From Komagataeibacter xylinus (GTDB lineage Bacteria; Pseudomonadota; Alphaproteobacteria; Acetobacterales; Acetobacteraceae), in contig NZ_CP041348.1 of assembly GCF_009834365.1 (NCBI RefSeq), positions 280,001-344,000 on the forward strand: a DNA stretch of 64,000 nucleotides, in the 5' to 3' direction. Each line of letters opens with the position of its first letter. Position 1 is the first letter of the stretch. Below the pieces are notes generated by a model. The model was not told where the DNA came from, did no database searches, and saw nothing but the letters and a program-made list of their open reading frames with translations. The position numbers and the translations under genes were made by a program. Positions 566 through 2,495 of the stretch are shown one piece after another.

Positions 566-2266
566 CTAGACCGTACTGATCACGATCTCGACGAGGTTGG
601 GCCGCCCTGAGGCCATCGCCGCCTCAATGGCCGGGGCAATATCGGCCGCTCGTGTGATCTGCCGCGCTTCGAGCCCGTATGAAGTCGCCATCGCCTGATA
701 ATCAATGGGCGGATCGCACAGATCCATCGCCAGGAAATTGCCCTGCCGGGCCGAGACATAATGCGTCTGCCCGCGCATGAAACCCTTGAGCACGTTATAT
801 TCGCGGTTGTTCATCACCACGAATGTTACCGGCAACTGCTCATGCGCCGCAGTCCAGATCGCCTGCGGGGAATAAAGGGCCGCACCATCTCCCACCAGGC
901 AGACCACCGGCTCGCGCCCCAGCCCCAGCGAAGCCCCCACCGCAGCCGGCATGCCCCAGCCCAGCGCGCCGCCGCGCAGGAAGGAATACTGCGCCGCCCA
1001 GTCGCTGTTGAGGAACATGCGCGTGTAGGACGACGTGGCAATGGCCTCATCCACAATGGCAACCTGGGGGCCAATGGCGCGCACGGCCTCGTAGGCGGCA
1101 ACACAGGGGGCTATGACCGCATCACCCTGATGATCCGCCACCAGTTCTTCGGCCTCAAGGCGCCTGCGGGCGCGGGCCGCCACGACTTTTCCACGTGCGG
1201 CAACATGGGCCGCACGGCAGGGTTCGGTCTCGCGCTGGAGAAGAGGCAGCAGCACGTCAAGCGAGGCGCGGATATTGCCCACGAGGGAAAGCGGCGTCTG
1301 GAACGTGCGGCCAAGATCACGCGCATCGGCCGAGACCTGATAGACCGCGCAGCCCGGCGGCACGGGCGAGCCCTCGGAATAGAGGATGGTGATGAGCGAT
1401 TTGCCGCCGAGTGCAAAGATCGCATCATAATCCGCCAGGCGACTGGCAATATCGGTGGCGCGCGTGGGCATGTTACCTGCCCAGAGCGGGCACGACGTGG
1501 CGAACGGAATGCGCGAGGGCCACGACGCGCCATAAACCGGCGCCCCCAGCATGTCGGCCACGGCGGCGACCTGTGCTGCGGCATCCGCCCCATGCACCTC
1601 ATCACCCGCGATGATGGCCAGCCGCCCCGGCGTAATGCCCGCCAGCGCATGGGCAAGTTCGGGCAGGCCGCCGGCTATGGCCGCTCGGTTGATGACCGAA
1701 GGACTGCCGATGTCGATCTCGCTGGCCTCTTCCATCACATCCATGGGCAGCGACAGGAAAACCGGCCCCGAAGGCGCTGCCATCGAATCGTTAAAGGCGC
1801 GGCGCACCAGCACGGGCAACTGGTCGGCATGCAGCACTTCCTGCGCCCATTTCACCGCCGGGGTGGCAATGCTGACCAGATCGCCAAACAGCAGCGGGTC
1901 GGAGATGGTATGCCGCGAATCCTGCTGGCCCGCCGTCACCACCAGCGGTGTCTGCGATACGCTGGCATTGAGCAGGTTGCCCATGCCATGCCCCAACCCG
2001 CCTGCCGTATGCAGGTTGAGAAAGCCGGGGCGGCCTGCTGCCTGCGCATAACCATCGGCCATGGCCACAACACTCGCCTCCTGCAGGGCCAGGATATATT
2101 TCAGGTCCGGGCGGCGCTGCAGGGCATCGATCAGGGGGAGTTCCGTCGTGCCGGGATTGCCAAAGATATAGCGGACCCCCTCACTTTCCAGAATTTCCAG
2201 AAGGATATCGGCGCCGCGCCGCCCTCCCGTTCTTCGTGCCGCGACCTCAAGCGGTGTAATGGCCAT
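566..2266 (-). CDS. Thiamine diphosphate-dependent decarboxylase/acetolactate synthase-like enzyme
   Basis: A 566-residue member of the ThDP enzyme superfamily (pyruvate decarboxylase, acetolactate synthase, benzoylformate decarboxylase). The N-terminal Pyr domain has GNPGTTE near residue 36, the ThDP-activating Glu in LQEA (about E63) and the active-site-type His in NLHTAGG (about H86). The C-terminal PP domain has the ThDP motif GDG (459-461) ending in NN (487-488). Overall it is closest to benzoylformate decarboxylase-like proteins, but the second catalytic His of that enzyme (H281 in the Pseudomonas protein) has no obvious equivalent, so the substrate is open. It is not next to ilvN, which argues against a biosynthetic acetolactate synthase. 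A Fur box lies 105 bp upstream of its ATG. Confidence 0.8.
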   Translation of the reverse strand: MAITPLEVAARRTGGRRGADILLEILESEGVRYIFGNPGTTELPLIDALQRRPDLKYILALQEASVVAMADGYAQAAGRPGFLNLHTAGGLGHGMGNLLNASVSQTPLVVTAGQQDSRHTISDPLLFGDLVSIATPAVKWAQEVLHADQLPVLVRRAFNDSMAAPSGPVFLSLPMDVMEEASEIDIGSPSVINRAAIAGGLPELAHALAGITPGRLAIIAGDEVHGADAAAQVAAVADMLGAPVYGASWPSRIPFATSCPLWAGNMPTRATDIASRLADYDAIFALGGKSLITILYSEGSPVPPGCAVYQVSADARDLGRTFQTPLSLVGNIRASLDVLLPLLQRETEPCRAAHVAARGKVVAARARRRLEAEELVADHQGDAVIAPCVAAYEAVRAIGPQVAIVDEAIATSSYTRMFLNSDWAAQYSFLRGGALGWGMPAAVGASLGLGREPVVCLVGDGAALYSPQAIWTAAHEQLPVTFVVMNNREYNVLKGFMRGQTHYVSARQGNFLAMDLCDPPIDYQAMATSYGLEARQITRAADIAPAIEAAMASGRPNLVEIVISTV

Positions 2267-2362: not shown

Positions 2363-2391
2363 TTGATAATAATAATGATTATCATTATCAA
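2363..2391. promoter_or_regulatory. Fur box embedded in a symmetrical promoter
   Basis: Bases 2371-2389 match the classical 19-bp Fur consensus at 17 of 19 positions. The palindrome is flanked by TTGATA (2363-2368) and TATCAA (2386-2391), separated by exactly 17 bp. This reads as a -35/-10 pair on the plus strand and, by symmetry, on the minus strand too. Iron-loaded Fur bound here would block RNA polymerase in both directions: the short plus-strand transcript and possibly the ThDP enzyme gene at 566-2266. The motif is seen directly; Fur control is inferred. Confidence 0.75.
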
Positions 2392-2397
2392 GAATAC

Positions 2398-2495
2398 AAC
2401 CCGTGGGCTCTCCGACAGATTCCCAACCGTCGATTTCCCAACCCTTCCCACGGAAACTTACGGCATCACCTGCACCCGGGTGATGCCGTTTTTTT
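2398..2495 (+). ncRNA. Candidate Fur-repressed small RNA (about 98 nt)
   Basis: Transcription from the promoter overlapping the Fur box would start near 2398. The RNA would fold into an outer stem CCGTGGG/CCCACGG (2401-2407 with 2447-2453) enclosing a small hairpin CGAC/GTCG (2413-2416 with 2429-2432). It has C-rich unpaired stretches (TTCCCAACC and TTTCCCAACCCTT), a short A/U-rich linker (2454-2460) and a strong rho-independent terminator. There is no ATG and no ribosome-binding site inside. This layout is that of an iron-starvation regulatory RNA (functional RyhB/NrrF type), whose C-rich loops could pair with Shine-Dalgarno sequences. No homology to a named RNA is claimed. Confidence 0.6.
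2461..2495 (+). terminator. Rho-independent terminator of the candidate small RNA
   Basis: Perfect 10-bp stem CGGCATCACC/GGTGATGCCG (2461-2470 with 2479-2488), an 8-nt loop and a run of seven T (2489-2495). It lies 79 bp before the next plausible ATG, so it ends a separate short transcript or works as an attenuator. Confidence 0.85.

Follow-up and report, generated by a model that had tools for sequence, protein, structure and literature searches.

Positions 2398-2495 of the window (the whole 64-kb stretch analysed, G000:C1:280001-344000 of a chromosome of 3,527,401 bases) probably encode, with a probability of about 0.85, a Fur-repressed trans-acting RNA that would, when iron is scarce, keep iron-sulphur enzymes from being translated and so be RyhB-like in action. 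In the proposed mechanism, iron-loaded Fur would cover the promoter of this RNA (copy A); when iron is low, Fur would leave the box over the -35 and -10 elements and the RNA would be made. Its unpaired C-rich core would then invade the start regions of sdhC (succinate dehydrogenase operon) and acnA (aconitase) and, in Komagataeibacter, could also pair with that of nuoA (complex I operon). Pairing would block ribosome entry, sparing iron. A second copy beside dps (copy B) bears the same core. Repression as the direction of regulation is suggested by the position of the sites and by analogy with RyhB-type RNAs; any need for Hfq is presumed. The first-pass annotation had proposed a Fur-repressed small RNA at this locus, and its proposal gains support from sequence conservation, from other Fur-box loci near iron-uptake-type genes and from targets predicted in silico. 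Features are collected in Table 1.

Table 1. Coordinates of the features discussed; unprefixed positions are those of the window.
Feature	Position	Strand	Basis or remark
Small RNA, copy A	2398..2495	+	fold, conservation; putative start ~2398-2400
Promoter, -35 TTGATA 2363-2368, -10 TATCAA 2386-2391	2363..2391	+	spacing 17 bp; read from sequence
Fur box core AATAATGATTATCATTATC, 19 bp	2371..2389	no strand	18/19 vs typed consensus
Outer stem 2401-2407 / 2447-2453, enclosing a domain with two C-rich single strands	2401..2453	+	fold
Weak inner hairpin CGAC/GUCG, 2413-2416 / 2429-2432, loop containing UUCCCAACC	2413..2432	+	fold
Pairing core UUCCCAACCGUCGAUUUCCCAACC	2420..2443	+	first 21 nt same in copy B of own genome
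UUCCCAACC with nuoA leader GGUUGGGAA, 9 bp	2420..2428	+	predicted
CCCAACCGUC with acnA codons 2-5 (GACGGUUGGG), 10 bp	2422..2431	+	predicted
CGUCGAUUUCCC with sdhC leader GGGAAAUUGACG at -20 to -9, 12 bp, one G-U	2428..2439	+	predicted
Intrinsic terminator, 13-pair stem 2460-2489, T-run 2489-2495 (seven T)	2460..2495	+	terminator scan, sequence
Divergent thiamine-pyrophosphate enzyme gene	566..2266	-	beside copy A in 18/18 loci
Downstream ORF, 172 aa	2551..3069	+	no Pfam match at E 0.001; variable distance from RNA
RNA, copy B	G000:C1:83428-83524 (L031:1929-2025)		Fur-like box before it; similarity search
~325-aa ORF (MSETTGCTADWHLEHS..., MSETTGC...) directly 3' of copy B	L031:2054-3031		no Pfam above cut-off

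Promoter, fold and conservation of copy A

A near-palindromic Fur box overlaps the -35 and -10 elements of the copy A promoter, and both the box and the element pair with its 17-bp spacing were present as first annotated. The generic promoter scan did not list this pair, because its rule wants T as the last base of the -10 element. Against the central-A form of the typed Fur consensus used for scoring, the box scored 17/19, one position fewer than against the form given in Table 1. Matches with three or fewer mismatches numbered four in the window, all within 2365-2389, and none in 100 shuffles. Across the 3.98-Mb genome this threshold returned three loci (reversed control, 0), among which the copy A box, with a single mismatch, was the genome's best, the other two having three mismatches each. 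Judged from translations read by eye, the first of these (G000:C1:2793200, L245) has a FecI/FecR-like pair on one side and a PepSY-type membrane protein on the other, and the second (G000:C1:3053516, L246) is next to a P19-like periplasmic iron protein. Because both adjoin iron-uptake-type genes, they support control of copy A by Fur. Three Fur-family proteins in the genome exceeded the Pfam cut-off.

The predicted RNA is about 96 nt long. Folding of 2398-2500 gave -37.1 kcal/mol (z -5.0), and none of 200 shuffles was as good. The C-rich strands are predicted to be unpaired, with a mean probability of 0.90 for 2420-2428 and 0.97 for 2434-2443, in agreement with the C-rich loops of the first-pass annotation; the segments facing acnA and sdhC, which include the weak inner stem, average 0.65. 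The strong terminator reported earlier was recovered, with a stem of 13 pairs and a T-run of seven reaching position 2495. The locus had also been called free of open reading frames. In substance this stands, since the two forward frames over copy A (63 and 88 codons) gave no Pfam match at E 0.001 in a search confined to forward frames, and the copies of the RNA differ by 1-, 2- and 4-base indels; taken literally it does not, as mechanical frames cross the interval on both strands (106 and 99 codons on the reverse).

Of 19 Komagataeibacter genomes, the own one counted, 18 have copy A; in the remaining genus member (G004) copy B alone was seen. For the 18 copy A loci, mean pairwise identity stood at 0.70 in the upstream DNA and 0.67 immediately ahead of the box, rose to 0.88 (0.876) in the box, was 0.46 from the -10 element to the start, 0.86 in the RNA (0.855 over 2400-2489) and 0.93 in the T-run, and fell to 0.35 beyond it; the opening 100 bases of the next ORF gave 0.61. 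Conservation thus peaks at the Fur box and the RNA of copy A. A lack of conservation here beside conserved flanking genes had been named beforehand as evidence against a small RNA, and the comparison turned out the other way.

A sister copy and the extent of the family

The same 21-nt core, TTCCCAACCGTCGATTTCCCA, occurs at a second locus on the chromosome (C1:83450), about 199 kb from copy A. This copy B, of which the first-pass annotation was unaware, is flanked by a divergent gene for a Dps-type ferritin (PF00210) and by the ~325-aa ORF. Its box, TTGCAATTGATATTCGTTTGCATTATC, gave no second match to the typed Fur form within three mismatches; since it is only Fur-like, its regulator is less certain. 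Unlike that of copy A, the copy B terminator has an interrupted T-run and lies near the start of the ORF.

Alignment of 30 copies (18 A and 12 B) allowed the structure to be compared between the two kinds. The nearly identical pair L039 and L040 was represented in the copy alignments by L039, and L058 was left out of the locus comparison. In most A copies the outer stem reads CCGTGG/CCACGG and in most B copies TCACGG/CCGTGA, so that four of six pairs are changed on both sides, and every cell of the stem is paired. Paired cells made up 97.3% of the whole structure; shuffles gave 92.5%, and sliding the structure along the alignment gave no more than 53.8%. Further pair types numbered 12, under the shuffle mean of 14, and the inner hairpin is less constant, its outermost pair being broken in 12/30 rows and its A-U pair replaced by G-U in 12/30. 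The covariation of the outer stem is largely the product of one divergence, that between copies A and B.

These data bear on a reading that assigns the Fur box to the divergent gene for the thiamine-pyrophosphate enzyme and sees in the stem-loops no more than a nearby terminator region. Such a role would suit the near-palindromic box, the start of the divergent gene only 97 bases from it and the 0.70 identity of the DNA on that side. However, conservation is higher (0.86) over the 90 bases on the RNA side of the box, where the compensatory stem, the target matches described below and the core in common with copy B are all found, and copy B has a Fur-like box yet other neighbours. We therefore regard this reading as very improbable.

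Within the sampled Acetobacteraceae, a covariance model matched 32 of 397 genomes, in 5 of 102 genera; under the strict filters of the search, weak members may have been missed. Two copies of the RNA were found in four Gluconacetobacter genomes. Translation of the flanks in one of them (L194) placed one copy, with a stronger T-run, next to dps; the other kind precedes an MSET-type ORF. ORFs that begin similarly are also found downstream of the RNA in loci of Gluconacetobacter, g97, g10 and g55. A pattern scan of named species genomes, blind to the form of the RNA in g97 (which may be Novacetimonas), returned 110 stretches. By a simple script, 18 of these resembled the RNA, and two more (L083 and L096) were RNA-like and incomplete at the end of the stretch, giving 20. 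Among the 80 stretches with a species title, 17 were RNA-like, from Komagataeibacter (11) and Gluconacetobacter (6). In most other stretches a frame encoding a PNVDFP-like peptide was present (87 on a loose criterion, under which L083 and L096 are also counted), and five were of other kinds. A search of a plasmid collection gave no match to the RNA.

The gene order around copy B invites a different reading of the family, as a Fur-controlled 5' leader whose terminator or attenuator acts in cis on the downstream gene, without a free small RNA. Copy B in Komagataeibacter and one Gluconacetobacter kind do directly precede the ~325-aa ORF (MSETTGC...), with interrupted T-runs. At copy A, by contrast, seven T close the terminator, conservation is poor (0.35) in the DNA that follows, and the spacing to the next ORF varies, being about 400 bases greater in 2 of the 18 loci; complementarity to three unlinked iron-enzyme genes would also be left unexplained. 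For copy A we consider control in cis distinctly unlikely. A history combining the two modes may be entertained, if tentatively and at somewhat less than even odds: the family would be specific to the Acetobacteraceae, would have begun as a Fur-type-controlled leader of the gene for the ~325-aa protein, would still act as a leader in one copy, and would have been duplicated into free-standing copies (copy A and the dps-linked Gluconacetobacter copy), the core evolving together with the sdhC, acnA and nuoA start regions.

Predicted pairing with iron-enzyme mRNAs

The first-pass annotation had guessed that C-rich strands pair with the ribosome-binding regions of iron-protein mRNAs, and in silico this was borne out for sdhC, acnA and nuoA. 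Two of these, sdhC and acnA, were chosen in advance as targets, sdhC being the classic target. As background we used 381 genes from 400 kb plus the window, scoring up to eight starts per gene and keeping the best. All 381 fell short of each of the three targets in contiguous-helix energy, and the longest plain match in the background was 8 nt. When the core was shuffled at the mononucleotide level, 0 (sdhC), 3 (acnA) and 11 (nuoA) of 3000 shuffles did as well, never for two targets together. Contiguous-helix scoring was adopted after a gapped duplex search of 341 genes, which was dominated by G+C-rich loops and had no recognisable iron gene among its top 25. In that search, with a slightly different core and window, 9/341 background genes reached -20.5 kcal/mol, the energy of the sdhC site, or better. 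The gene nuoA was absent from the 341 genes, apparently because an overlapping longer frame displaced it, and from the 381 background genes as well.

For sdhC, the copy A core CGUCGAUUUCCC and the leader form 12 bp at -20.5 or -22.6 kcal/mol. The leader reads GGGAAATTGACG in 19 Komagataeibacter and three g97 genomes and GGGAAATCGACG in six Gluconacetobacter, in each case at -20 to -9, and complementarity was found in 28 of 30 genomes. In the own sdhC the longest plain Watson-Crick run is 7 nt, followed by the G-U; 31 of the 381 background genes equal or exceed this run, and the strength of the site is thus due to the G-U pair. Because the leader is kept well beyond the pairing site, its conservation is not independent proof of pairing. 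Over about 45 bases (L287:1400-1446) the sdhC leader is nearly identical in Komagataeibacter, g97 and Gluconacetobacter, and it may hold a further control element.

The two genomes lacking the common sdhC site, G158 (g55) and G027 (g10), have altered RNA cores. In G158 the RNA sequence ATCGTCGCCTCG is a perfect 12-nt complement of the genome's own sdhC start region, CGAGGCGACGAT; one of 5000 shuffles gave a match as long, and 31 of 5000 reached its duplex energy. When five RNAs were crossed with four leaders, the own pair of G158 (-34.4 kcal/mol) was the best in both its row and its column. The same was true of the own pair in G027 (-29.9), for which 331 of 5000 shuffles reached the energy and the longest match was 7 nt. 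The re-formed match in G158 is the strongest sign of selection on pairing, as read from the sequence of one genome.

The predicted acnA site falls in codons 2-5, where GACGGTTGGG (10 nt) was found in 23 of 30 genomes and CGGTTGGG (8 nt) in six Gluconacetobacter; G158 retains the match, and G027 was the one genome of the 30 with no site in these codons. As the codons specify a conserved peptide, conservation of the site is not independent proof. On the minus strand of L334, some 140 bases ahead of acnA, lies a strongly conserved block, GGGTATGTTCTAC...GTTGGGAGATC, that resembles a promoter and start site and could also pair with the RNA core at -18.5 kcal/mol. The part GTTGGGAGATC, near the likely 5' end of the acnA mRNA and a possible further site, precedes acnA in 28 of 29 genomes (G001 left out) and is absent in G158; this may be promoter conservation, and the block was not counted as a site.

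Unlike the other two targets, nuoA was not chosen in advance and emerged from a genome pattern scan with GGTTGGGA, which occurs before an ATG at 14 places in the own genome, two of which, nuoA and thrC, read as true gene starts. The equivalent scan with GGGAAATCG also gave 14 matches, none of which read as an iron gene; the own sdhC was missed because it has GGGAAATTG. The nuoA leader carries all 9 nt of aacaGGTTGGGAAcacgga before the ATG in 18 of 19 Komagataeibacter genomes and 8 of the 9 in the remaining one. In g97 the RNA core has one C more (TTCCCCAACC, 3/3 RNAs), and the nuoA leader reads GGTTGGGGA in two genomes of three, with an extra T in the third. The site was absent in all six Gluconacetobacter and in G158; for G027 the search did not locate a nuoA start. 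Two tRNA genes lie about 0.3 kb upstream of nuoA (L218:1024-1205). In the thrC-like leader (G000:C1:412543, L201), GGTTGGGA is near the start, and similar strings occur in several members of the genus; thrC is not an iron gene.

It may be asked whether a real iron-responsive RNA has other mRNAs, or a protein, as its main partners, with the sdhC, acnA and nuoA matches secondary or coincidental. Three target genes were examined closely, part of the genome was scanned, and the thrC leader shares GGTTGGGA. Nevertheless, both genes picked beforehand beat all 381 background genes in contiguous helix, and the sdhC match was re-formed in the far relative G158. We judge other principal partners unlikely.

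Relation to known iron-sparing RNAs

Fur-repressed iron-sparing small RNAs combine a Fur box over their own promoter, a structured transcript with an intrinsic terminator and no conserved ORF, and complementarity to the start regions of iron-enzyme mRNAs. The first two features were found here at the sequence level and the third in silico. No Rfam family reached its gathering score anywhere in the 64-kb window, and the RyhB covariance model was not among the eight matches up to E 1 for 2340-2520. Copy A scored 17.1 bits against PrrF (RF00444; cut-off 90) and 14.0 bits against FsrA (RF02273; cut-off 80), and its other weak matches (CcsR1 at 20.3 bits, suhB and others) were all far under their cut-offs. 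Copy B gave two weak Rfam matches, one of them to a microRNA family. The first-pass annotation knew of no such RNA in acetic acid bacteria. A literature search judged by title and the start of the abstract, with most subscription journals outside its scope, recognised among the hits listed no paper on a Fur-controlled small RNA in these organisms.

Many Alphaproteobacteria control iron through regulators other than Fur. Under the tentative history of leader and duplication given above, the family would add a non-coding arm to the Fur regulon in this class. A Fur-boxed RNA with a re-formed sdhC match offers a directly testable case. The hosts are cellulose- and vinegar-making organisms, in which respiratory flux passes through succinate dehydrogenase, aconitase and complex I.

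The sdhCDAB operon is a target of RyhB in enterobacteria. RyhB resembles copy A as a Fur-repressed short RNA that represses iron-using enzymes, as outlined in PMC11005374 and PMC9410917; the pairing core and architecture of the copy A RNA differ from it. PrrF1 and PrrF2 of Pseudomonas are likewise duplicated, Fur-controlled iron RNAs, but those copies are in tandem, according to a title cited in PMC3751524, whereas the two copies here are about 199 kb apart. FsrA of Bacillus and IsrR of Staphylococcus are iron-sparing RNAs with C-rich single strands, and those of FsrA bind Shine-Dalgarno sequences (PMC9410917); both belong to another phylum, and IsrR is set beside the copy A RNA by description only.

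Within the Alphaproteobacteria, RusT of Caulobacter crescentus is also an iron-starvation small RNA, but according to PMC11005374 its regulator is NtrYX, no Fur site has been recognised for it, and its action is largely on transporters of the outer membrane. The Caulobacter region CC0680-CC0682 is Fur-repressed, and its authors speculate that processed small RNAs mediate iron sparing; compared here by description only, it differs in that the northern blot showed only a large transcript, and the passages of PMC3751524 name no targets. Judged on sequence features, the RNA pair fits best as a new family within the known RyhB/PrrF/FsrA/IsrR kind, and the iron-sparing RNA solution seems to have been invented independently once more.
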